The notes under the pieces are model-generated. The model was given only the letters and a program-made list of their open reading frames with translations, was not told where the DNA came from and did no database searches. Positions 3,001 through 28,565 of a stretch of 30,221 bases of DNA are shown here, in pieces. The position numbers and the translations under genes are program-made. Numbering within the stretch: position 1 is the first letter of the stretch; each line of letters begins with the position of its first letter. The stretch is taken from the IMG/VR virus record IMGVR_UViG_3300028410_000044, positions 1 through 30,221 of that record; one strand, 5' to 3'. Source of the stretch: a virus.

Positions 3001-6000
3001 TCCAGTAACCGTTTAGTGGCTTGCCTGATGGTGAAAGCCCGCCGGTATAGTTATATGTGAATGAATTAGTTCTCTGGTACAATTCATTTGTAGTATAGTC
3101 TGGGTTACCAGCAATAGTAGTCCATTCAACAAAGTCTGCGATCATTGAACGGTCAATCGAATCTTTTGAATAACCTGTTGTTCTAAAATCACTAGGAACA
3201 AATTTATCTAGGTCGAACAGGTCAACGTTATACGATTGCTTCAAGTTGTTGTAGATTCGATTTTCAAATTCAAGAATAATATCATCACGGAAGTCGTCGA
3301 ATGCAAGTACGATACTGCCGTCGTGGCCTTGAATCACTGTTCTAGGTTCTTGATATGTTGTGTCAACAAACTTTTGTGGCACAAATGCTGGATATAGCCC
3401 TAGCTTTGTAGGAGTTGCCGGAATATACGAGCCGTCTGTAGTGTCACACTCAACAACCTGTATTAGATCATCTTGTACCAAATCTACACTAACGTTTACA
3501 AAACCTTCGTTACTAAACGTGTAATCTCTGCCGTGGATCAACTGCTCTGAGTTAAGGTAGACAAGAACTGATCTAGGGCTTAGCTCGTCTAACGAAAACG
3601 GTTCGGTTAACGCATAGAAGTTATTGCCGCCGGCTGGAACTTTATAATCTATAACACGTGAAGCAGCTACGCATAGCATATCTGTGAAATAGAACGGCAT
3701 CGAAGTAGTCTTGCTAGCATTGACTCGACTTAATGTTAGGTCAAGTAACTGTCTTGGTGTTCCGTCGAAGCCTAAGTTTTCAGCGGTTTGCAGCAAAGTT
3801 CTTTTGAACTTTGCATACTCTACACGGTTGAAGCGCAATGCCTTGATGATGTTTGCATCTTTGTCAGTAATGTGATAATTCGCTAAGTTCAAAGGACCAG
3901 TATGCTGTACAAAGCGACGACCGAATGAATCTAGTTGACCAAGGTCGCGTAGGTTATTTGCTCCTGGGAACTTGCCTTCGAAGCCTCTAATGTTTTCTGC
4001 AATAGTTTGTACGTGGTCGTTAACTTCGCCTAGAGTAAACTCTCCTATCTTATTGTTAAGAGGATTTCTTTCTAGGTTATAAGCCATTTCATAATAACCG
4101 TTATCGTTCTTTGAAGTACTACTTTTTACTTTTAAGATAACGTTTGAATCTACAGGCAGCACTTCGTTAAACACAACAACTGCATTTTCTCTGCTGCGGT
4201 CGATTGTATAATCAGTTTCTAGTAATTGTAGATCTTGGTTCAGTAGAACTTTTACACTGAGGTCTGTCACTGAACTACTGCGATCGTAAACATCGATTTC
4301 AAAACGGGCTGTTGGTTCTTCTACAACGAACTGTCTAATTACTGCTTGATCACTATTCTTGTTAGTCTTTGCCCAGCCATTCTGAACCGTGAACGTTTCA
4401 CGGTCAGTGTACTTTCTCAAGTAACCAATGTCCGTAGCCTTTGTGAACAAAGTCTGATCAACTCGATAAACAAAGCTCTTGTTAACGAGAGAGAAGTTAA
4501 ACTGTAGATCGCCGACGTTTTCGATTGTTCTGTAGCTTAATGGGAAACCAAGTTCTGAATCCGGTGACCCTTCACCTTGTTTGTATTCAAACACGGTGTT
4601 ACCAGTGAACGAAGTTTCTTCGTAAACAGTAACATCACTAAACGCATTACCTGCACTGTCGTAAAGCTCAAAACGTGGCGACTGATTGTTGTCTGTTTTC
4701 TCTTGTGCTTTTGCCCAAGTAGTACCGTTGTACCAGTAAAACTGGCCAGCGTTCTCGTTACCGTTTGTAACTAGAACTACTTCGTCTTCGTGGGGAACAG
4801 CATCTGGTTCTTCAATCAAAGATATTTGATTTCTGTTGTTAACTCGCAAGAAGGTAACACGGTAAATCTTTCCGTTCACTCTCTGATCAGGATCGGCAGA
4901 AAACAATACTCTTTGTCCTTGTGTTAACGGAACTCCGTCAACGTTATAACCTACCTGGCCTTCAACATTAGAAAACACATCAGTTGTGAAGTCGTCAACC
5001 AAGTCGATGTCTCTTTTAGCTTGAGTACCAAAATTGTATAGCCGTAGACCAAGGTCAAACTCTATTATAGGTCGAGTTGCTCTAGCAGACTGGTCCAACT
5101 CTTCAGCAACGTTGTTGTATCTCGCTGCGGCTGCAATAGTGTCTGTATGGAACCATCGGTTGTAGCGTGACCAAGCATTTCTATCCACGCTTGCTCTATT
5201 AACAACAATGTAATCTTTTGTTCCAGCAAAACTGCTGGCATTGTCAAACGGTAGTCTGTCCCATTTTCCTGAGCCAAAAGGTACTAAAACATCGTCTGCG
5301 TATGCAGCCGGAACTAAAAGGGTTGCTTCACTTACTAGTTCAATTTCTGTTCCAACACCTTCAACATACCAGTCGCCAGTGCCGTAAATTGACGGAGTCA
5401 CTTCGCCTAAGAACGTTACTTTTAAGCCGTTAGTGAATTCTACACCGTTGGCACTTGTGTATGTTGACTTGCCAATAATCTCTTCTTCAACATTAATACT
5501 AGTATTTTCTTCGATGTCGAATATCTTAATGAAGCCGCTTGTGTTGATGTCGCTTTCACTTAGGTAAAACAAATGGTTCGGTGCCTGTAGCGGCACAGTA
5601 AACTCTATAACACCTTCTTCGATATATTGCGGCGCAACTTCGTTGCCGTCAGCATCGAAGAACTTCTGCCCTTTAGTGTATTCGCTAGATACATTCTCGC
5701 TTTCTTCATTTGGATCTGGCACAGTAAAGTTGCTGTCGACCGTAAACGCAAGAGGAAAACCTGGAGTATCGATTTCAAACCTATAAGTTTGTCCGCGATA
5801 CAAAGTTAGGGTTGGATTAGCAGCGAGTCTGTTTGAGAACTTGTAAGTAGAGTTGTCGCCCTGATCTTGTACTGTAACCTTGTAAGTACTGATAATCTCT
5901 TTTGCCTGACCGGTAACACTAACAGTTTGAGGACCATTAGGCAACCAGAAATACTCACGAAAGTTTGCTAGCTTATCCCAGTCTACGTTAGGATTCCATG

Positions 6001-17310: not shown

Positions 17311-18321
17311 ATGTTTAAGAAAGCGGCTGTATTCACAGACCTGCACCTTGGGTTGAAAGGCAATTCCAAGGTGCATAACCAAGATTGCGAAGAATTTATA
17401 GACTGGTACATTGAAGAAGCAAAGAAGGCCGGTTGCGAAACGGGCATTTTTTGTGGCGATTATCACCATAATCGTAACACAATTAACATCTCTACCCTAC
17501 AGTCATCTTTGCGGATTTTAGAAAAATTAGGCGAATCTTTCGAACAATTTTACTTCTTTCCAGGAAACCATGACCTGTATTACAAAGACAAAAGAGACAT
17601 ACATTCTGTTGAATTTGGCAGGCACGTACCCGGTATAACCATCGTAAACGAGATAATGGTAAAGGATGATGTAGCACTTGTACCCTGGCTTGTAGGCGAT
17701 GAATGGAAGAAGATGTCTAAAATCAAAACAAAATACTTGTTTGGTCATTTTGAACTTCCTAGCTTCTACATGAACGCAATGGTACAGATGCCTGACCACG
17801 GTGACTTAAAAGCAGACCATTTCCAGCATCAGGACTATGTGTTCAGTGGTCACTTTCACAAGCGACAGAAGCGCGGCAAGATACATTACATCGGTAATGC
17901 TTTCCCTCACAACTACGCGGACGCTTGGGACGATGCAAGAGGAATGATGATACTTGACAAAGAGAACGACAAAGAGCCAGAGTACATAGACTGGCCTAAC
18001 GCCCCCAAGTATCGCACAATCAAACTATCGGAACTGCTTGAAGATACTGATAGCATCATCAAATCAAAGATGTACCTCAGGGTCAGTATCGACATTCCTA
18101 TTTCATACGAAGAAGCCAGCTTTATCAAAGAGACGTTTGTTAATCAGTACGACTGTCGTGAGATTGCTCTTATTCCACAAAAGCAAATCGAGGAAATTTC
18201 AACAGACATTGATATCGAGCATTTCGAATCAGTAGACGAAATTGTGTCAAACGAAATTACTGCTATTGATTCTGACAACTTTGATAAGAAGCTTCTACTA
18301 GATATCTACAACGAGCTATAA
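17311..18321 (+). CDS. 47: Recombination endonuclease subunit gp47 (Mre11/SbcD-like)
   Basis: This 336-aa protein is the nuclease subunit of the gp46/gp47 complex, which resects DNA ends for recombination-dependent replication. The calcineurin-like phosphoesterase motifs are all visible in order: DLHLG with Asp10 and His12, GDYHHNR with Asp50, GNHD at 85-88, FGHFE with His146, and SGHFH with His181 and His183. These are the metal-binding positions of Mre11/SbcD. Length is close to T4 gp47 (339 aa). The start at 17311 is supported by an ideally placed GGAGG and a sigma-70 promoter. The gene is followed by gp46 after a single intervening base, so the two subunits are surely co-translated. Confidence 0.95.
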   Translation: MFKKAAVFTDLHLGLKGNSKVHNQDCEEFIDWYIEEAKKAGCETGIFCGDYHHNRNTINISTLQSSLRILEKLGESFEQFYFFPGNHDLYYKDKRDIHSVEFGRHVPGITIVNEIMVKDDVALVPWLVGDEWKKMSKIKTKYLFGHFELPSFYMNAMVQMPDHGDLKADHFQHQDYVFSGHFHKRQKRGKIHYIGNAFPHNYADAWDDARGMMILDKENDKEPEYIDWPNAPKYRTIKLSELLEDTDSIIKSKMYLRVSIDIPISYEEASFIKETFVNQYDCREIALIPQKQIEEISTDIDIEHFESVDEIVSNEITAIDSDNFDKKLLLDIYNEL

Positions 18322-18322
18322 T

Positions 18323-20095
18323 ATGATAAGAATAAAAGATTTAACAGTAAAGAATTTTATGAGTGTAGGCAACGTGTCGCAGGGACTGGACTTCAACAAA
18401 GAAAAGCTAACACTGGTCCTAGGCGAAAACTTAGACCAAGGCGGTGACGACAGTGGCTCTCGTAATGGTACAGGCAAGACTACTATCATTAACGCTCTCA
18501 GCTATGCACTGTACGGCCAGGCGCTGACAAGTATCAAGAAAAATAACTTGATCAACAAGACCAATAGAAAAGGCATGTTGGTTACTCTGCACTTTGAAAA
18601 AGACGGGTTAGACTATCGCATTGAACGCGGGCGTTCACCTAACGTTTTGAAGTTTTACATCAACGATCAAGAACAAGAAATGATTGATGAGTCTCAAGGC
18701 GACAGTCGTAAAACACAAGAGTCTATTAACGACCTTCTTGGCATGACTCACGACATGTTCAAACATATTGTTGCGTTAAACACTTATTCAGAGCCTTTTC
18801 TCAGTATGAGAACAAATGACCAAAGAGCTATCATTGAGCAGCTTCTTGGTATTACGATTTTGTCTGAGAAAGCAGATACCCTAAAAGAGAAGATTCGTCA
18901 TGTAAAGGCTGAAATTGTAGAAGAAACTCTTAAGATCGAAGCTATTCAATCAGCAAACGTTAAGATTGAACGCACCATCGAGAGCTTAGAAACAAAGCAA
19001 AAGGCCTGGAACACAAAGAAGCGACAAGATGCCAAAAAGCTAGAAGGCGCTATTCAAGAGCTTGAACACCTTGACATCGAAAAAGAACTTGAGTCACATG
19101 ACAAGCTAAGCAGGTGGTCAGAACTTAATAACCAGATCACAGCACTGCAAAAAGAAAGAAGCACATTAGAAAATGCTGTGACAAGAGCAGATAAGACTCT
19201 TGACAAGGTCAAGAAAGACATTGACGAGCTCAAAGACGCAACCTGCTACGCTTGTGGTCAAGAACTTCATGCAGACAAGAAAAAAGAAATTCTTGACAAG
19301 AAAACTAAAGAGCTTGAAGACGCAACTGCTTACCAAACTGAGGTAACAGGAAAGTTCGAAAAAGTAATGAACAGCCTTGACGAGATCGGAGACATCGATG
19401 GCAAGCCAAGCACCTTCTACGAAACAGCCAAGGAAGCATACGAACACCAAAATAACGTTACAAGTTTACAACAGGCACTCGAGTCGAAACTACAGGAAGA
19501 AGATCCTTACCAAAGTCAGATTGACGAGCTTAAACAAGAGGCAATCCAAGAAATAGACTGGACTCCTGTTAATGATTTAACTAATGTTAAAGAGCACGAA
19601 GAGTTCTTACTCAAGCTCTTAACCAACAAAGATTCGTTTATTCGTAAGAAAATTATTGATCAGAACCTAGCGTACTTGAATCACAGACTCACATATTACT
19701 TGGACCGTTTAGGTTTGCCTCACCAGGTTGAATTCCAAAACGACTTGAATGTGGAGATTACCCAATTAGGCCAAGATCTAGACTTTGATAACTTATCGCG
19801 TGGCGAACGAAACAGGCTTATACTAGGTCTTAGCTTTGCTTTCCGCGACGTTTGGGAGAGTTTGTATCAGAACGTAAACTTGCTGTTCATAGACGAATTG
19901 ATTGATTCGGGTCTTGACTCAGCGGGTGTAGAAAACGCGCTCAGTGTGCTAAAGAAAATTGGTAGGGAACGTGAAAAGAATATCTTCCTTATCTCGCACA
20001 AAGACGAGCTTGTAGGAAGAGTAAATCACATACTTAAAGTAATTAAGGACGGCGGATTTACATCATACGCTAATGATGTAGATGTAGTTGAATAA
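18323..20095 (+). CDS. 46: Recombination endonuclease subunit gp46 (Rad50/SbcC-like ATPase)
   Basis: This 590-aa SMC/Rad50-type ATPase partners gp47. The Walker A motif is GSRNGTGKT at residues 45-53. A long coiled coil runs from about 180 to 440 and is split by a zinc hook, CYAC, with Cys308 and Cys311, used for dimer linking. The C-terminal lobe has the ABC signature LSRGE at 491-495, the Walker B segment LLFIDE at 520-525 and the switch histidine in LISHKD at 559. All expected catalytic parts are present. Length is close to T4 gp46 (560 aa). It starts one base after the gp47 stop, and its stop is one base before the next ATG. Confidence 0.96.
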   Translation: MIRIKDLTVKNFMSVGNVSQGLDFNKEKLTLVLGENLDQGGDDSGSRNGTGKTTIINALSYALYGQALTSIKKNNLINKTNRKGMLVTLHFEKDGLDYRIERGRSPNVLKFYINDQEQEMIDESQGDSRKTQESINDLLGMTHDMFKHIVALNTYSEPFLSMRTNDQRAIIEQLLGITILSEKADTLKEKIRHVKAEIVEETLKIEAIQSANVKIERTIESLETKQKAWNTKKRQDAKKLEGAIQELEHLDIEKELESHDKLSRWSELNNQITALQKERSTLENAVTRADKTLDKVKKDIDELKDATCYACGQELHADKKKEILDKKTKELEDATAYQTEVTGKFEKVMNSLDEIGDIDGKPSTFYETAKEAYEHQNNVTSLQQALESKLQEEDPYQSQIDELKQEAIQEIDWTPVNDLTNVKEHEEFLLKLLTNKDSFIRKKIIDQNLAYLNHRLTYYLDRLGLPHQVEFQNDLNVEITQLGQDLDFDNLSRGERNRLILGLSFAFRDVWESLYQNVNLLFIDELIDSGLDSAGVENALSVLKKIGREREKNIFLISHKDELVGRVNHILKVIKDGGFTSYANDVDVVE

Positions 20096-20096
20096 A

Positions 20097-20438
20097 ATGG
20101 ATCCGAAAAAGAAAGGCGAACAGATGCGGGCTGCTAAAGGTCCGCATCCAACCCCAAAGCAACAAGAAGAATACAGAACTGTAAGTGACGAAGACTTCAC
20201 TGACAGTCACGATGCTCTTGCCAAGGCTTACCTCGCCTACTTTGATGCATATTTCTTGTATATCAAGAAAGGTTCAATAAGGTCCTACTACGAATGCCAG
20301 AAACAGCTTCGTACCGTCATCGAACAGGCTAAAATAGTACAGAAGGATTGTCAAGATAACTTCTATAAAGATAGAAAACGCCCAGGCGTTCACAAACAAA
20401 GGAAATTAGATGCCCAGCAAAAGCAAAACAAAAGGTAA
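20097..20438 (+). CDS. Small basic protein of unknown function between gp46 and the resolvase
   Basis: I do not recognise this 113-aa protein. It begins MDPKKKGEQMRAAKG, has a central predicted helical pair with many aromatic residues (LAKAYLAYFDAYFLYIKKG, then SIRSYYECQKQL) and ends in a strongly basic tail (KRPGVHKQRKLDAQQ). No Shine-Dalgarno sequence is evident. The ATG lies one base after the gp46 stop, so re-initiation is likely. A TTG at 20088 would add three residues. The 3' end overlaps the next gene by 29 bases in another frame. The basic tail and the location within a recombination gene group would fit a nucleic-acid-binding or accessory role, but that is only inference. Confidence 0.7.
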   Translation: MDPKKKGEQMRAAKGPHPTPKQQEEYRTVSDEDFTDSHDALAKAYLAYFDAYFLYIKKGSIRSYYECQKQLRTVIEQAKIVQKDCQDNFYKDRKRPGVHKQRKLDAQQKQNKR

Positions 20439-20931
20439 GACGTTCGAAAGAGAGATAGCAACTTTTCTATCCCAAGCATACAACGACAGTTTTACAAGAG
20501 TTCCAGACTCGGGTGCCTTTACCGGCGGTAAGAACGCACACAGACGTGACACACTAACTGAAGGACAGGTACGTGCACACAAGGGCGACATAATACCTCC
20601 TGATGATTGGAAACACTTTAACTGCGAATGTAAAAATTACGCAGATTTTAGTTTCCATCAACTCTTTACCAAGAGCCCTGTTCCTATATTGGAGCAATGG
20701 CTTGAGCAAACACTAGAGGCAGCAGACCCAGGCGATTGTAACATCCTATTCATGAAATTCAACCGTAAAGGCAAATATGTGGCATACTTAATGCCCGAGC
20801 CATTCTATACCATCAGGCACTTAGATTATATCGATAAAGGCGGCAACATTTGGCGCATTACAGGCTTTGACGACTTCTTTGAACACAACGCTGTGAACTT
20901 CGAAGGTCGTTGTAAATCACACTCCAACTAA
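20410..20931 (+). CDS. Hjc-like Holliday junction resolvase (PD-(D/E)XK nuclease)
   Basis: The 173-aa protein shows the pattern of archaeal-type Hjc and related PD-(D/E)XK resolvases. It has an N-terminal helix with KGKTFEREIATFL (Glu13), the segment TRVPDSGAFTG that corresponds to the R-x-P-x-S-G loop, then KGDII with Asp60, and CECKNY with Glu73 and Lys75. These are the expected metal-binding and catalytic positions. In T4 the junction-debranching enzyme is gp49 (endonuclease VII), an unrelated fold. Here a PD-(D/E)XK enzyme next to gp46/gp47 could do that job before packaging. The start at 20410 has AAAGGAAA 4-5 bases upstream and overlaps the preceding ORF. A more general restriction-type nuclease remains possible. 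Confidence 0.75.
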   Translation: MPSKSKTKGKTFEREIATFLSQAYNDSFTRVPDSGAFTGGKNAHRRDTLTEGQVRAHKGDIIPPDDWKHFNCECKNYADFSFHQLFTKSPVPILEQWLEQTLEAADPGDCNILFMKFNRKGKYVAYLMPEPFYTIRHLDYIDKGGNIWRITGFDDFFEHNAVNFEGRCKSHSN

Positions 20932-21584: not shown

Positions 21585-21812
21585 TTAAAAGAAAGGCATG
21601 CCTGAGCGTTTCGTATTCTCTAAGTTGTCTTCTATGAGATCTGCTATTAGTTCTCGATCTTCTGGACACAGATAGTAGGCCTCTTCGAGTGTTAGTCCTC
21701 CTCGCATAAACCAACACATCTTTGTTAGCTCTGCTTTAAACTGCTTGGATTGACCGTCTAGGGTTTTAACCTCGTCGAGGATCTGTTTGACGGACCATGA
21801 TAAAACCCTCAT
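21585..21812 (-). CDS. Small tail/baseplate assembly protein, downstream partner in a -1 frameshift
   Basis: This 75-aa ORF starts with ATG at 21812 inside the stop region of the upstream gene (ATGA overlap) and has no Shine-Dalgarno sequence of its own. It is made of short helices and ends WFMRGGLTLEEAYYLCP, then EDRELIADLIEDN and a C-terminal SGMPFF. The size, acidic helical character and position resemble the second part of phage tail assembly chaperone pairs such as lambda gpT. Its frame is -1 relative to the upstream gene, and a slippery sequence with a downstream stem lies at the junction, so it may be made mainly as the C-terminal part of a 364-aa fusion. From memory, marine T4-like phages have similar small proteins next to gp26-like genes. 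The exact T4 counterpart (gp51 or another) is unclear. Confidence 0.75.
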   Translation of the reverse strand: MRVLSWSVKQILDEVKTLDGQSKQFKAELTKMCWFMRGGLTLEEAYYLCPEDRELIADLIEDNLENTKRSGMPFF

Positions 21813-21824
21813 CCGAAAAAATTT
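21760..21824 (-). promoter_or_regulatory. Programmed -1 ribosomal frameshift signal
   Basis: On the minus strand the upstream gene ends ACA AAT TTT TTC GGA TGA. This contains two overlapping slippery heptamers in the correct phase, A_AAT_TTT (21824 to 21818) and T_TTT_TTC (21821 to 21815). Five to eight bases later a 9-bp perfect inverted repeat begins, AGGGTTTTA (21809 to 21801) with TAAAACCCT (21768 to 21760). It encloses a smaller hairpin, CCTCGACGAGG (21780 to 21770). A -1 slip leads straight into the frame of the 75-aa ORF and gives a 364-residue product. Confidence 0.75.
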
Positions 21825-22678
21825 GTTTGATCGAACGTAATTGGAATCTCGTATGTCTCTGGCACCCCAGCTTCGATCTCTTCTTCAGTAGCGTCAACTA
21901 CCATAGGCTTGATTGAGAAACTTTCTTTTTGTGTCTCTAGATGATCTGTAACTTTTTTGAACAAGTCCTTGTCAGCATTGTCAACAAACTCGCTGATGTG
22001 CTCTTTGTTAGTAACTGTTTGGTCTTCAAACTGAACAGCGGCAATACTTGCTTTAAGTGTTCCTACAGTCATGTCAGTTAGCTTAGTGAAGCTGCGGTTG
22101 AAAGCCAATAGTTTTTCTTCCTCTGGCATGTCGTCGTCGTTTACAATGCTGAAGATTCTCTGCTCTTCGAACGTCTTGATGCTCAGTTCAGTAAACTCTC
22201 TGTAGGTAAGAGGACGAAGAATAACCTTCATACCGTCGAGCTCAACTACGTTGTTGTACTCAGCAGCGTTTAGGCTGTCAAGCATTACACGCAGGTCTGT
22301 TTGGAATGTTTTCTCTTCGCCTGTTACAGGAACTTTAATGTGTAGATCCATCATCTCACCGTAGGTTGCAATCCTGATAGCAATTAATATTGCGTCTAGA
22401 TCAAGACTCGGAATTTTCCAACCGTCTTTGATATTAGGCATACAGCTCTCGATAACACTAACTGTTGCTTCACCGTTCAACAATGCATCAGGTGTTTTCA
22501 TAGTCAGTTCATCTTTAGCTGTCATTGCATACACCGGATATTCATTGTTTTCGGTCTTGTCCAGCACTCCCTGCGGGTAGAATTCGCCGGAACTAGGCAG
22601 CGAGACATAGATCTTTGGCTGTCTAAAGTACTTCTGTAAGGGGTTTGAACCCTGATTTGGCGCGTGCATTTCTGCCAT
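21809..22678 (-). CDS. gp26-like baseplate/tail assembly protein (T4_baseplate family, tail-chaperone-like)
   Basis: The 289-aa protein resembles the marine T4-phage proteins annotated as baseplate hub subunit gp26. Visible features are YFRQPKIYVSLPSSGEFYP near the start, MTAKDELTMKTPDALLNG at about residues 50-70, SCMPNIKDGWKIPSLDLDAI, and IAIRIATYGEMM. These are also reminiscent of tail assembly chaperones in other phages. The C-terminal half is acidic and helical. The start at 22678 has AGGAG 6 bases upstream and a late octamer (CATAAATA) at 22727-22720. The frame ends N-F-F-G-stop over a slippery sequence, so a fraction of ribosomes may continue into the 75-aa frame. The divergently placed neighbour is the tape measure gene, which fits a chaperone that coats the tape measure during tail assembly. 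Confidence 0.72.
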   Translation of the reverse strand: MAEMHAPNQGSNPLQKYFRQPKIYVSLPSSGEFYPQGVLDKTENNEYPVYAMTAKDELTMKTPDALLNGEATVSVIESCMPNIKDGWKIPSLDLDAILIAIRIATYGEMMDLHIKVPVTGEEKTFQTDLRVMLDSLNAAEYNNVVELDGMKVILRPLTYREFTELSIKTFEEQRIFSIVNDDDMPEEEKLLAFNRSFTKLTDMTVGTLKASIAAVQFEDQTVTNKEHISEFVDNADKDLFKKVTDHLETQKESFSIKPMVVDATEEEIEAGVPETYEIPITFDQTNFFG

Positions 22679-22753: not shown

Positions 22754-25540
22754 GTGGTAGACTCAGTTAACATTGATAACGTCGGTGGCGACACAGGCAT
22801 AGCGTCTGAAGTAACGCTTCAGCGACTTTTAGCTACAATGGAGCTAATGGCCAACAAGACCGGCGCCGATAGTAAGATGGCTGTTAAGAAAGCCAACGAG
22901 CAGTATAAAAAATCTATTCGAGATCTTGACGACGCTACAAAGAAAGCCGCAGAAGAAAAAGAAAAGAACACAAAAGCTACTAAAAAAGCAACCAAGGCTG
23001 CTAAAAGATATGCTGTAACACTTGGCGTAGTTACAAGGACTCTGAGTGCGTTTGTTCAAAGTATTTCTGGATTGACTCAGCAGCTATTCACAGGCAGCAC
23101 AGAACTAGCTAGCTTTACTCAACACATACCTTTAATCGGTCAGCATATATCTGTTCTGTCAGAGTACATCGATGATTCCTTTTCGGCATTTCAAACACTG
23201 TCGTCGTCAGGTGCAGCTTTTAACAACAACCTTAATGAGTTACGATATACTTCTGCAACAGCAAGATTGAGTCTTGAAGACTTTACTGGAATAATACAAA
23301 ACAACACTGACAAGTTAGCAGCACTAGGCGGAACAGCGACTAAAGGTGCAAAAGCAATGGCTAACATGACTGATCAGTTAGGAGCTCAACGTACTCAATT
23401 GTTAAACATGGGTTTCAACTTCGAAGAAATAAACGAAGCCATGATCGACTACGCATACCTAACTCGTACTCAAGGTAGGGTAGAAAACAGAAACACCAAA
23501 CAAGTAGCTGAACGGGCAGCATCTTATGCTACTACACTTCAAACCCTTTCAAAACTTACTGGCGAATCAGTAGACAAGCTAAAAGAAGAACAACAGGCAA
23601 GACAAAACGACGTAGCGTTCCAGCTTAAACTATCAAAGATGGGCGCCGACGAACAAGAAAAAGTCATGAAAGGAATGGCAGAGGCGGCCGCTGCCGGTCC
23701 AGCCGCAGCCGCAAGATTCAAAGAAGTAGTCTTGGGTATGCCTCCGATGTCCAGAGCAACTCAGTTGTTTGAAGCAACTATGGGAGAAGCTGCTACTGGT
23801 ATACGTCGATCAGCAGAAGATGCTATGAACGCCCAAGTAACAACGTCAGACTATGCGGCTATGAGCAGCAGACGAATGGCAGAGATTACCGCCGCTCAGC
23901 TAGAAAGTGCACGAGGTATGGAGAACGTACTGTCGGCTGGTGTAGCGTCTGGCGAAGGTATCGGAGCAGAGCTAGCAGAAATGTTAGGCAACTTGGGCAT
24001 CGATCTAGCACAGTTTGGTGATAAAACTGGCAACGAATTAGTATCAGCAGTAGAAGCAGAAATTGAAGCATCTAAAGAAGAACAGAAAAGTAGATCAGCG
24101 TCAGTTGGCGTGATGGCTAATTTTAACGAGACTCTTGCTAGTGTACGATCATCTTTTGCTAGATTGTTTATTGAAAGCGGTATACTCGACGCATTTGCTA
24201 GGTCTATTGATCATGTGTTGGGCATTCTCAATAAACCAGAGGTAATGGGCAGACTAAGCAAGTACTTGACGTCATTTACTGACAGTCTTAATACATGGTT
24301 GACTGCGTTCAGTAAAGATCCGTCAGGAACGTTAGATAAGATGTGGTCAGACATTGGCGACGGTCTCTTAAAGTCTGTTGGCAGTGGCCTTAAATCTTTG
24401 TTTACTAACCCTTATGTTTTAGGAGTACTTGGAACTTCTATCGCCGCTTTGCTTGCCAAAGATGCAATAGTATCTCGCATGGGAGCTAGCGGCGCTGCCG
24501 GAGCAGCATCAAACGCAGCGCCAGCTGGTGGCAGATCTAGAGGCAGAGGAGGCAGGGGACTAGGCGGAATGCTGGGTAACCTAACTGGAGGAATCCTTGG
24601 AGGCGTAGCAAACGGATTGGTAGCGTTTGCTAATCCGATGGTCATCGCCGGCGCAGTAAACATCGGCTTAGTAATTACTGCAATCGGTGCAGGTATAGCA
24701 GGTGCAGCATGGATAACTGGTAAACTTCTGCCGACGTTTGTTGAAGGCATGAAGAAGTTTGAAGACCTCGACGGCGAAACTTTGGCTGACGTGGGCAAAG
24801 GCCTTCTAGTAATGTCTGGTGCATTAGCAGCATTTGGAGTTGGGTCAGCTGTAGCAGGGTTCGGATCGTTTATTGGAAATATCGGGGAAGGGTTAAACAT
24901 CCTCACCGGCGGCCAATCTCCAGTAGAAAAATTAAAAGAATTCTCAGAACACAAGATAACCGAACAGCAAGTTAACCAGATTGAATTAAATGCACGAGCA
25001 TTTAAAACTTACGCCGAAGCAATGACCGCTGTTGGTGCAGGCAGTGCTATGAGTGCTGTAGGATCAATTGCAAGCAGTATCTCAGGATGGTTTAGTGATT
25101 CTCCATTAGAAAAATTACAAGACTTTGCAGATGAGAATATCAATCATCAAAATCTTAAACGTAACTTGCAGTCAGTTAAAGACTTCCAGGCTGTATTCAG
25201 CAGCATGGGATCAGACAATAACGGTACTATGGGATTAAAGAATCTCGACGTTGATAACGTAATTGACTATGCAGAAGCTATAGAAGAACTAACTGAAGCA
25301 ATAGCAGATTTGAACAAAGAACTTAAAGGAGACAGTGGCGGAGGCTTTGGCCGAGGTAGGTCTCGTGGCGGAAGTTCAGGCGGCTCAGACTACAACGCAG
25401 GCGACTTGTTAGGCCAAATGGACAAGTCGAAGAAAGAAAACGACGTAAATACAACTGACTTGATAAGAGTTTTGGAAGAGATAAAAAACCTAAACAAGCG
25501 TACACTCAGATCAATAAACGAAATAAGGGATTCACAATAA
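22754..25540 (+). CDS. Tail tape measure protein
   Basis: This 928-aa protein has tape measure character: a charged N-terminal coiled coil (about residues 40-90, rich in Lys, Glu and Ala), long Ala-rich helical stretches through residues 100-470, and a cluster of hydrophobic segments around 550-720 (NPYVLGVLGTSIAALLA, then FANPMVIAGAVNIGLVITAI, then GLLVMSGALAAFG). A Gly/Arg/Ser-rich linker near residue 590 and another near 870 interrupt it. The C-terminal helix is again charged. It takes the place of T4 gp29 (590 aa), and the greater length would predict a longer tail. The start is GTG at 22754 with AGGAA 8 bases upstream. It sits beside the chaperone-like gp26 gene and is followed directly by the portal gene. 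Confidence 0.82.
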   Translation: MVDSVNIDNVGGDTGIASEVTLQRLLATMELMANKTGADSKMAVKKANEQYKKSIRDLDDATKKAAEEKEKNTKATKKATKAAKRYAVTLGVVTRTLSAFVQSISGLTQQLFTGSTELASFTQHIPLIGQHISVLSEYIDDSFSAFQTLSSSGAAFNNNLNELRYTSATARLSLEDFTGIIQNNTDKLAALGGTATKGAKAMANMTDQLGAQRTQLLNMGFNFEEINEAMIDYAYLTRTQGRVENRNTKQVAERAASYATTLQTLSKLTGESVDKLKEEQQARQNDVAFQLKLSKMGADEQEKVMKGMAEAAAAGPAAAARFKEVVLGMPPMSRATQLFEATMGEAATGIRRSAEDAMNAQVTTSDYAAMSSRRMAEITAAQLESARGMENVLSAGVASGEGIGAELAEMLGNLGIDLAQFGDKTGNELVSAVEAEIEASKEEQKSRSASVGVMANFNETLASVRSSFARLFIESGILDAFARSIDHVLGILNKPEVMGRLSKYLTSFTDSLNTWLTAFSKDPSGTLDKMWSDIGDGLLKSVGSGLKSLFTNPYVLGVLGTSIAALLAKDAIVSRMGASGAAGAASNAAPAGGRSRGRGGRGLGGMLGNLTGGILGGVANGLVAFANPMVIAGAVNIGLVITAIGAGIAGAAWITGKLLPTFVEGMKKFEDLDGETLADVGKGLLVMSGALAAFGVGSAVAGFGSFIGNIGEGLNILTGGQSPVEKLKEFSEHKITEQQVNQIELNARAFKTYAEAMTAVGAGSAMSAVGSIASSISGWFSDSPLEKLQDFADENINHQNLKRNLQSVKDFQAVFSSMGSDNNGTMGLKNLDVDNVIDYAEAIEELTEAIADLNKELKGDSGGGFGRGRSRGGSSGGSDYNAGDLLGQMDKSKKENDVNTTDLIRVLEEIKNLNKRTLRSINEIRDSQ

Positions 25541-25541
25541 C

Positions 25542-28500
25542 ATGAGCTGGAAAAAACATTTTACACCGGTTCCGACTGGGAACAACAGCACAGGCAGTTT
25601 CTCGCCGCTCGGTGGACAAAGTGGCTCAATGCCAGGACCAGCCACAAGAAATTATACTTCACATCTTCCAGATGTGTACACAGGGTCCCCGAACCGTATC
25701 GAAAGATATAACCAGTACAATACTATGGATCAAGACAGCGAAGTAAATGCTGCTCTTGATATTCTTGCAGAGTTTTGTACACAGAAAGACAGTCAAAACG
25801 GCACTAGCTTTATTATCAACTTTAAACAAAACGCTAGCACAACCGAAACCACTGTTCTTCAAAAGTATCTACAGCAATGGTATAAGCTAAACAAACTTGA
25901 CACAAGAATGTTTCGTATTATTCGAAACACGTTTAAGTACGGTGATCAAATCTTTGTACGTGATCCAGAAACTAAAAAGCTATTCCATGTTGACCCAAGT
26001 AACCTAACAAAAATTATTGTTAACGAAAGTGAAGGTAAAACACCTGAACAGTATATCGTTAAAGACTTCAATCTAAACTTTGGTGAGTTGGTAGCAACTG
26101 CTCCTTACCCACAAGAAGGTCACGTAGGCGATCACGCTACTTCTTATAATAAGGGCGGAAGCTCGCAGGGCTACCTGTCTGGACAGAAAACAGCAGGCGG
26201 CATAGCAGGTACTAGATTCTCGTTAGACCAAACAGAAATTGCTGTTTCTGCTGAAAACGTAGTTCACTTGTCAATGAGCGAAGGACTAGATGTCAACTAT
26301 CCATTTGGTAACAGCCTGTTAGAAACTATATTCAAAGTCTACAAGCAGAAAGAGTTGCTTGAGGATGCGATTATTATCTATCGTGTGCAACGTGCACCAG
26401 AGCGTCGTGTATTTTACGTTGATGTTGGTAATATGCCAAGCCACCTTGCGATGCAATTTGTTGAGCGAGTAAAAACTGAAATACACCAAAGACGCATTCC
26501 AAGTCAGACAGGGGGCGGACAAAACGTAATTGACTCGAGCTACAATCCTCTCTGTTTGGATTTATCTACAAGGATTCCTCTACTTGACGGAAGAACATTA
26601 GCATTAACTGAGTTAATTGCAGAATTTGAGAAAGGAAAAGAAAACTGGGCATACAGTTGTGATCCTGTGACTGGCAAAATAGCGCCAGGCGTAATTAACT
26701 GGGCTGGTATTACTCGCAGAAATACACAAACTATTCAATTAACATTTGATAATGGCGAAACTTTAGTTTGTACCCCAGACCACAAGATACCAGTATTTGG
26801 AAAAGGTATGGTAGAGGCCAAGGACATCGTCGAAACTGATAGTTTAATATCTTTTAATAAAAGAAACAAAAAGATATCGTCTAAATCTAATGACTATGAG
26901 CAAGTTTGGGATCATAGCAAGAAGGAATGGATGTGGACTCATCGAGTTGTAGGCGAGTTTTTTAGAAACTTGAGCAAACATCAGGAATTTACATACCTTG
27001 AACAAAATGTAGGAAAGTCTAAAGCAGTAATACATCACCAAGATTATAATCGCTTTAATAACGATCCACGTAATCTTCAATACATGAATAAAGCTGATCA
27101 CATACAGTACCATGCTGCAAATAAATCAGATTACTGGTCTAATCTATCAGAAGAAGAATTTCAGTTAGTTACAGGAAAGATTTCTAATACGTTAAAAACA
27201 CATTGGAAGAATATGACTATTGTAGAAAGACAATCAGCTCTTTACAATATTAGGTCAGCACAACAGAGATCAGTGTGGATGAGACAGAACGATACTGCGA
27301 CTATGATCAGTTATAAAGAGAACGCTGGCAAATCTAGAAGAGACTACCTTAATAGTAATCCAGCTGCGATGCAACAAGTGGTAAAAAACTTGGAATCTAG
27401 AGTTAAAATAAAAAATCAATCGTTGCGTTTGACATTTGAAATGTTACAGATAGTAGTGGACATAGTTAAAACTCAGTCAACAAACAAGAACACTGTAATT
27501 AATCTTTGTGACAATAACAAACAGTTACTGGATCTATTAAAGAAAGAAAATTCAGTTGCTCTTGATTATAAGAACGCTCAGTGTAAGATTGACTTTACGC
27601 GATTTGGTTATAGCAAACTAAATCGACTTCTTAAGAAAAACGGATACACTAACTGGAAACAGTTTGTAAAAGAGATCGATCAGTTTAACCACAAAGTAGT
27701 AAAAATAGAAGTAGTGTCTAATCGAGATACAGGAACTATTACCATAGACGGTACTGAAAAATGGCACAACTATCACACGTTTGCTATCGAAAGTGGTATC
27801 TTTGTTAAAAATTCGATCAACGAAGACTACTTCTTCCCGCAAACAGCAGAAGGTCGTGGGTCTAAAGTTGAAACACTACCAGGCGGTACTAACCTTGGCG
27901 AAATTGACGACCTTCGTTACTTTACTAACAAGATGGTTAGAGCATTGCGCATTCCTAGCTCATACCTGCCAACAGGTGCTGAAGATTCAAGCAGCCAATA
28001 CAATGATGGCCGAGTAGGCACTGCCTACATACAAGAACTCCGCTTTAACACCTACTGTGAGCGTCTACAAGGGCTGCTGATAGAAGGTTTTGACCAAGAG
28101 TTCAAGCGTTACTTGCTGGAAAAAGGTGTAAACATTGATACGTCGATGTTTGATCTAAAGTTCCAACCACCACAGAACTTTGCTGCTTATCGTCAAAGTG
28201 AAATTGACAATGCTCGTATTCCTACGTTTACGCAGATGTCAGCTATTCCGTTTATATCAAATCGCTTTGCACTCAAGCGTTTCCTAGGCCTAACCGAAGA
28301 AGAAGTTGCAGAAAACGAGCGCCTGTGGAGAGAAGAGAACGAAGACGAGCTAGACACTGGTGCAGGCGATGCTGCTGACGAGCTACAAGGTGGCGGCGTT
28401 ACAGGCGGTGGCCTGGAAGGCGACCTTGATGGTCTTGAGGACGAAGTTGATGACACTGGTGGCGATTTCGGCGGTGACGGTGAACCTCCGCTATCAACTA

Positions 28501-28565
28501 CAGACGAAGCACCAGGCGGCGGCGAAGCCGGCGGTGGTGACGGAGATATCGGCGGCTCGATATAA
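25542..28565 (+). CDS. 20: Portal vertex protein gp20 with an in-frame intein
   Basis: The 1007-residue frame is the T4-type portal, the dodecameric vertex through which DNA is packaged, interrupted by a 420-residue intein at 338-757. The N-extein has portal-like segments YNTMDQDSEVNAALDIL, FRIIRNTFKYGDQIFVRDPE and RVQRAPERRVFYVDVGNMP. The C-extein begins SINEDYFFPQTAEGRGSKVE and has TLPGGTNLGEIDDLRYF and ALRIPSSYLP. After splicing the product would be 587 aa, near T4 gp20 (524 aa). The last about 70 residues form a Gly/Asp/Glu-rich, probably disordered tail. The gene begins one base after the tape measure stop. Splicing is needed because the intein sits inside the most conserved part of the portal. 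Confidence 0.95.
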   Translation: MSWKKHFTPVPTGNNSTGSFSPLGGQSGSMPGPATRNYTSHLPDVYTGSPNRIERYNQYNTMDQDSEVNAALDILAEFCTQKDSQNGTSFIINFKQNASTTETTVLQKYLQQWYKLNKLDTRMFRIIRNTFKYGDQIFVRDPETKKLFHVDPSNLTKIIVNESEGKTPEQYIVKDFNLNFGELVATAPYPQEGHVGDHATSYNKGGSSQGYLSGQKTAGGIAGTRFSLDQTEIAVSAENVVHLSMSEGLDVNYPFGNSLLETIFKVYKQKELLEDAIIIYRVQRAPERRVFYVDVGNMPSHLAMQFVERVKTEIHQRRIPSQTGGGQNVIDSSYNPLCLDLSTRIPLLDGRTLALTELIAEFEKGKENWAYSCDPVTGKIAPGVINWAGITRRNTQTIQLTFDNGETLVCTPDHKIPVFGKGMVEAKDIVETDSLISFNKRNKKISSKSNDYEQVWDHSKKEWMWTHRVVGEFFRNLSKHQEFTYLEQNVGKSKAVIHHQDYNRFNNDPRNLQYMNKADHIQYHAANKSDYWSNLSEEEFQLVTGKISNTLKTHWKNMTIVERQSALYNIRSAQQRSVWMRQNDTATMISYKENAGKSRRDYLNSNPAAMQQVVKNLESRVKIKNQSLRLTFEMLQIVVDIVKTQSTNKNTVINLCDNNKQLLDLLKKENSVALDYKNAQCKIDFTRFGYSKLNRLLKKNGYTNWKQFVKEIDQFNHKVVKIEVVSNRDTGTITIDGTEKWHNYHTFAIESGIFVKNSINEDYFFPQTAEGRGSKVETLPGGTNLGEIDDLRYFTNKMVRALRIPSSYLPTGAEDSSSQYNDGRVGTAYIQELRFNTYCERLQGLLIEGFDQEFKRYLLEKGVNIDTSMFDLKFQPPQNFAAYRQSEIDNARIPTFTQMSAIPFISNRFALKRFLGLTEEEVAENERLWREENEDELDTGAGDAADELQGGGVTGGGLEGDLDGLEDEVDDTGGDFGGDGEPPLSTTDEAPGGGEAGGGDGDIGGSI
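26553..27812 (+). mobile_element. Intein with HNH homing endonuclease inside the portal gene
   Basis: Residues 338-757 of the frame form an intein. Block A starts at Cys338 (CLDLSTRIPLLDGR). Block B has CTPDH with His414 at its expected place. The C-terminal block is HNYHTFAIESGIFVKN, ending in Asn757 before Ser758 as the +1 residue. The usual penultimate His is replaced by Lys756. Between the splicing blocks lies an HNH endonuclease motif at 498-524 (VIHHQDYNRFNNDPRNLQYM, then HIQYH), followed by basic helical DNA-binding-like segments to about residue 720. The insertion point is Asn-Pro-Leu | Ser-Ile-Asn-Glu-Asp-Tyr, a conserved portal motif, as is usual for inteins. The intein DNA looks more AT-rich than the flanking portal sequence, suggesting separate origin. 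The frame is intact, so homing may still be active. Confidence 0.93.

Follow-up and report, generated by a model that had tools for sequence, protein, structure and literature searches.

How the protein-coding information at this locus is decoded, and what its products do, are the two questions it raises. The window, meaning the whole stretch of 30,221 nucleotides that was analysed, contains a 289-aa gp26-like ORF that ends over a run of T bases and overlaps, as ATGA, a 75-aa ORF in the -1 frame. A sequence-only reading had proposed that the two are fused by a programmed -1 frameshift, making a 289-aa and a 364-aa form of a tail assembly chaperone. The comparisons made here, which are of sequences, put the probability of a tail assembly chaperone gene decoded by programmed -1 ribosomal frameshifting at roughly 93%. 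Its conserved frame, heptamer and extension are strongly supported.

Two reading frames and a candidate slippery site

The locus lies on the minus strand of the window, and comprises the following features:

21809-22678 (-): short form, gp26-like, 289 aa, zero frame; matches PF12322 and phrog_150, and is conserved in 117 loci
21815-21821 (-): putative slippery heptamer T_TTT_TTC, phased with the short form; invariant in 79/79 representatives
21585-21812 (-): 75-aa ORF, in the -1 frame relative to the 289-aa ORF, as called
21585-21815 (-): -1 extension, 76 codons and a stop, with CGG the first codon read once the shift has occurred; would complete the 364-aa long form

The zero frame terminates as ACA AAT TTT TTC GGA TGA, a sequence that holds T_TTT_TTC in phase and can also accommodate A_AAT_TTT. 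No Shine-Dalgarno-like sequence was seen, by eye, before the ATG of the 75-aa ORF. The positions of the ORFs, their ATGA overlap, their -1 relation and the missing Shine-Dalgarno sequence are all therefore as originally described, and the length of the predicted long product (288 + 76 = 364 aa) likewise matches the proposed pair of forms. The heptamer alone is not rare, as TTTTTTC occurs eight times in the window, against 11.5 expected. Among the 16 gene ends inspected in the window, only the chaperone locus had a heptamer in phase and, beyond it, a -1 frame that stays open over a long stretch.

Identity of the product

The short form matches the family PF12322 (T4_baseplate) at 45.1 bits, relative to a cutoff of 24.5, and phrog_150, named "baseplate hub", with an E value of 3e-15. 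Both T4 gp26 and T4 gp51 match the same two families, with the C-terminus of gp51 also matching phrog_634. The short form was modelled by AlphaFold with a pLDDT of 85.7, and comparison of its fold linked it to predicted T4-like proteins of the baseplate hub and of hub assembly, among them gp26 of Aeromonas phage 25. Solved structures gave nothing useful by sequence, and Foldseek found no match in the PDB; alignment of the short form with the HK97 chaperone 2ob9 by VIA-align (Z 5.8, rmsd 7.8, 88 residues) was within the range of unrelated matches.

The family name invites the reading that the frameshift is real, but that its product is a structural part of the baseplate hub, of which an extended form is rarely made; gp26 was indeed placed in the T4 hub by genetic work that PMC3004832 cites. 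However, the same review lists T4 gp26 and gp51 among the hub assembly chaperones, and Vladimirov et al. 2022, as cited in PMC10885494, assigned both to the tail assembly chaperones. In addition, the production of short and long forms through a -1 shift is a hallmark of tail assembly chaperones. We regard a structural hub component as improbable, and infer from homology and gene position that the locus encodes a tail assembly chaperone. The recasting of this "gp26 baseplate hub" protein as a chaperone, made by the sequence-only reading, is supported by its membership of the T4 gp26/gp51 family and by the position of its gene, which adjoins the following feature:

22754-25540 (+): divergently oriented neighbour, 928 aa, probably encoding the tape measure protein; identified from its position, its hydrophobic stretches and a RaK2 counterpart noted as tape-measure-like

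The 928-aa protein had no family match above cutoff in Pfam or PHROG, and a weak match to a virion protein of PA5oct. Its position, the RaK2 note and this weak similarity make it likely to be the tape measure protein. The neighbour taken for the tape measure gene in the earlier reading is thus likely, rather than established, to be one, and it is transcribed divergently from the chaperone gene.

Frameshifted tail chaperones are of a textbook kind. In the lambda example, gpG and gpGT, at a ratio of 30:1, bind the proteins of the tape measure and of the tube (PMC5009743). The window resembles lambda in arrangement: two frames overlap, a slippery heptamer for a -1 shift sits close to where the first ORF stops, the C-terminal extension is short, and a probable tape measure gene adjoins. 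The window differs in its slippery sequence, which would be T_TTT_TTC, in its relatives being T4-type, and in its tape measure candidate running opposite to the chaperone gene.

Other genes of the window were also recognisable. A T4-type portal gene at 25542-28565 (+), matching PF07230 in two stretches, carries an intein-like insertion, in which residues 347-729 match the PF14890 splicing domain slightly below the cutoff; an HNH-like motif lies inside it. At 17311-18321 and 18323-20095 (both +) are a calcineurin-like phosphoesterase and an SMC/AAA ATPase that resemble the T4 gp47/gp46 recombination nuclease. Near the chaperone locus, 20410-20931 (+) encodes a PDDEXK-type endonuclease (PF24608; the PHROG name is RusA-like Holliday junction resolvase), and in PA5oct and Phosso an annotated Holliday junction resolvase is found a few kb from the chaperone locus.

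Conservation of the heptamer

Two scans of IMG/VR yielded 34 and 80 loci, which with four jumbo phages and the window gave 117 loci, from which 79 representatives less than 90% identical to one another were retained. The patterns used in the second scan lay inside the protein, away from the heptamer, and therefore that scan did not select for the site. Nevertheless, T_TTT_TTC was in phase in 79/79 representatives, with the stop codon 3 nt past it in 74/79 and 9-18 nt past it in the remainder. This invariance contrasts with the overall use of phenylalanine codons across the representatives, which was 1005 TTT to 263 TTC (79% and 21%): F287 was TTT, and F288 was TTC, in all 79. Of the 69 conserved columns with degenerate codons, the other 67, further phenylalanine columns included, contained none that was codon-invariant. 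By this measure, the codons of the heptamer are constrained beyond the need of the protein.

The sequence-only reading had pointed to two phased heptamers, only one of which withstood comparison. A_AAT_TTT fits the window, but the codon preceding TTT TTC varies between AAT, AGT, CAT and ACT across relatives, ruling it out as the slippery site; T_TTT_TTC is thus the site, and A_AAT_TTT is incidental. A disrupted heptamer, an extension in a different frame, or a gap between the two frames was seen in 0/79 homologue representatives. The frameshift reading hence passed each of these sequence tests, which had been set out as ways of refuting it, with heptamer, frame and extension conserved together.

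The -1 extension

Of the 78 complete extensions, 74 have a length of 76 codons, and the median dN/dS over 127 close pairs is 0.08, indicating purifying selection. The value is 0.10 for pairs in which neither member starts with ATG, and such cases are common: from the last stop in the -1 frame through to codon 5, there is no ATG in 61/79 representatives, and none of ATG, GTG or TTG in 51/79. In PA5oct and in one further locus (L143), none of these three codons occurs anywhere in the extension. The presence of ATG at the overlap follows the stop codon of the zero frame, being found in 15/17 cases in which this is TGA, as opposed to 0/62 in which it is TAA or TAG. Therefore the window has an overlap ATG because its stop is TGA.

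These data bear on whether the 75-aa ORF might instead encode a separate protein, translated through termination and reinitiation at ATGA, with the T run being incidental. Such overlaps often couple translation, and 14 other representatives share the overlap ATG with the window. However, a conserved extension that mostly lacks a nearby start, and in two cases any start codon at all, argues strongly against reinitiation as the mechanism of the family. Nor would reinitiation account for the constraint on the heptamer codons, or for the -1 frame being open upstream through the heptamer in every representative. We consider it very unlikely, and return to frameshifting as the means by which the extension would be translated.

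The extension of the window had no family match in Pfam or PHROG. Its AlphaFold model consists of three helices, at a pLDDT of 92.1, and a search with this fold returned weak matches to uncharacterised phage proteins, with a "tape measure chaperone" of phage Moogle ranking low (E 2.5). Comparison with the extensions of cyanophage gp51-like proteins (hhalign E 0.0033, probability 9.8%, 31 columns) is only suggestive of a kinship between the window's extension and this phrog_634 type.

An RNA stem downstream of the heptamer

A stem following the slippery site was another element of the sequence-only reading. Its arms are as follows:

21809-21801 (-): 5' arm, AGGGTTTTA; perfect 9-bp pairing, beginning 5 nt after T_TTT_TTC
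21768-21760 (-): 3' arm, TAAAACCCT; pairs with 21801-21809

The 9-bp stem is perfect and placed as described, while the second hairpin reported within it is weak. By energy alone, the stem in the window is unremarkable for its composition (z of -0.69). Across the relatives, the stem region averages -1.87, compared with about -0.4 for the control, with one truncated sequence left out.

The stem region, window positions 21760-21809, takes in alignment columns 13-23, 36-44 and 52-62. In 21 stem-bearing relatives, the window included, an 11-pair helix was 94% paired, and 16 cells carried changes in both arms, where shuffles gave 3.1, with every slid register beaten; these relatives were chosen for bearing the stem, which inflates the percentage paired, and the double changes less so. 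For the same 5' arm there are two possible 3' partners, 18 nt (six codons) apart, and relatives differ in which of them pairs. Both exist because a similar motif (EIL ... KVL) recurs in the peptide. An 8-pair helix with this 5' arm was present at the window's distal register in 19/79 representatives, at the proximal register, 18 nt nearer, in 22/79, and at no further register in any of the 79. Permutation of the arms gave a mean of 8.8 and a maximum of 15 for the distal helix, which the observed 19 exceeds, and a mean of 17.7 and a maximum of 26 for the proximal helix, over which the observed 22 is no excess. The conserved peptide accounts for most of the proximal pairing. Both helices exceeded shuffles in a 75-sequence alignment, although relatedness inflates this excess.

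Several relatives carry other hairpins, or none. A universal stem can be ruled out, as it is absent or different in many of the 79 representatives, and hence it is not a required part. The expectation that slippery site and stem would hold up together among homologues was consequently borne out for the heptamer, kept in 79/79, and for the stem through compensatory changes in 21 relatives, but not for the stem family-wide. In the window's relatives the stem is probably real and stimulatory, without being obligatory.

Jumbo phages and T4-like relatives

The same T_TTT_TTC is found in the jumbo phages RaK2, GAP32, CBB, Serratia BF, XaC1, Vibrio 2.275, PBECO4, Atu_ph07, Phosso and PA5oct, with T_TTT_TTT in XacN1 and RAS14. 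Among T4-like phages, it also occurs in P-SSM2, S-PM2 and KVP40, with variants in Cr30 (T7), HTVC008M (T8) and phiM9 (T_TTT_TTG). These gp26/gp51 loci of cyanophages, KVP40, Cr30, phiM9 and HTVC008M resemble that of the window in that the last codons of a gp26-like ORF run across T_TTT_TTC or something very near it, and the -1 ORF that comes next spans some 56-63 aa and has a match in phrog_634, named "baseplate hub assembly catalyst". They differ in that this extension is shorter than that of the window, to which its homology is only suggestive. RNA polymerase slippage on the T run, rather than slippage of the ribosome, is likewise very unlikely as the source of the long form, as although the run exists, and reaches T7 in Cr30 and T8 in HTVC008M, nearly all sites consist of T6 followed by an invariant C, which is short for this mechanism, phiM9 has T_TTT_TTG, and the phase X_XXY_YYZ is always kept.

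Classical T4 departs from the frameshift-decoded arrangement. Its gp26 and gp51 belong to the same family as the short form, with gp51 corresponding to a long form with a C-terminal extension, and its gene 26 is likewise divergent from the operon holding the tape measure gene. However, 26 and 51 are separate genes in T4, whereas the window has one gene for both forms. T4 gp26 ends in GAG TTC TTT GAG, and so it keeps the two phenylalanines but encodes them as TTC TTT, meaning the heptamer has been lost. From these sequences, we infer a frameshift ancestor, followed by duplication in the T4 lineage. A broader version can be offered tentatively, and is somewhat more doubtful than not: that the T4 superfamily, including the jumbo phages, descends from one frameshift-decoded chaperone gene using U_UUU_UUZ, which classical T4 lost by duplication, with the stem of the window's lineage having moved between registers 18 nt apart while keeping its 5' arm.

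Proposed mechanism and significance

The mechanism proposed is that most ribosomes would stop after F288-G289, releasing the 289-aa short form. Some would slip back one base on T_TTT_TTC, with Phe-TTT in the P site and Phe-TTC in the A site, and read on through CGG ATG AGG and beyond; the resulting long form of 364 aa would end in a helical C-terminal domain of 76 residues. The RNA stem 5 nt downstream probably helps this slip in the window and a set of its relatives. By analogy with gpG and gpGT of lambda, the short form would serve as a coat on the tape measure protein, while the less abundant long form would bring in tail tube subunits via its extra domain.

The statement that no such case was described in T4-like phages does not hold. 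Beyond the recognition of T4 gp26 and gp51 as chaperones in 2022, as cited in PMC10885494, poly-T slippery sites in the chaperone genes of T4-like phages were called "known" in PMC12846349 (2025). The chaperone locus of the Vandenendeviridae and Andersonviridae described there is alike in that its poly-T slippery site is conserved and the -1 frame beyond it stays open, an extension that annotators overlook, and differs in its GTTTTT motif and in the chaperone gene lying just upstream of the tape measure gene. For the jumbo lineage, no description of the site was found in the titles and abstracts of a literature only incompletely covered. Hence the concept itself is established, and it is the jumbo-phage case that is new, very well conserved and strongly supported.

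The extension is unannotated in PA5oct (locus L002, about 3840-4062) and RaK2 (locus L152, about 2325-2545), and is annotated only as a shortened ORF in GAP32, CBB, XaC1 and XacN1. The long form of the chaperone has thus been missed or shortened in most of the jumbo-phage annotations checked, and "baseplate hub" labels are corrected once the site is recognised. A natural T_TTT_TTC frameshift site, very well conserved, also becomes available for study. Furthermore, these comparisons suggest that it is the textbook phage, classical T4, that is derived and exceptional.
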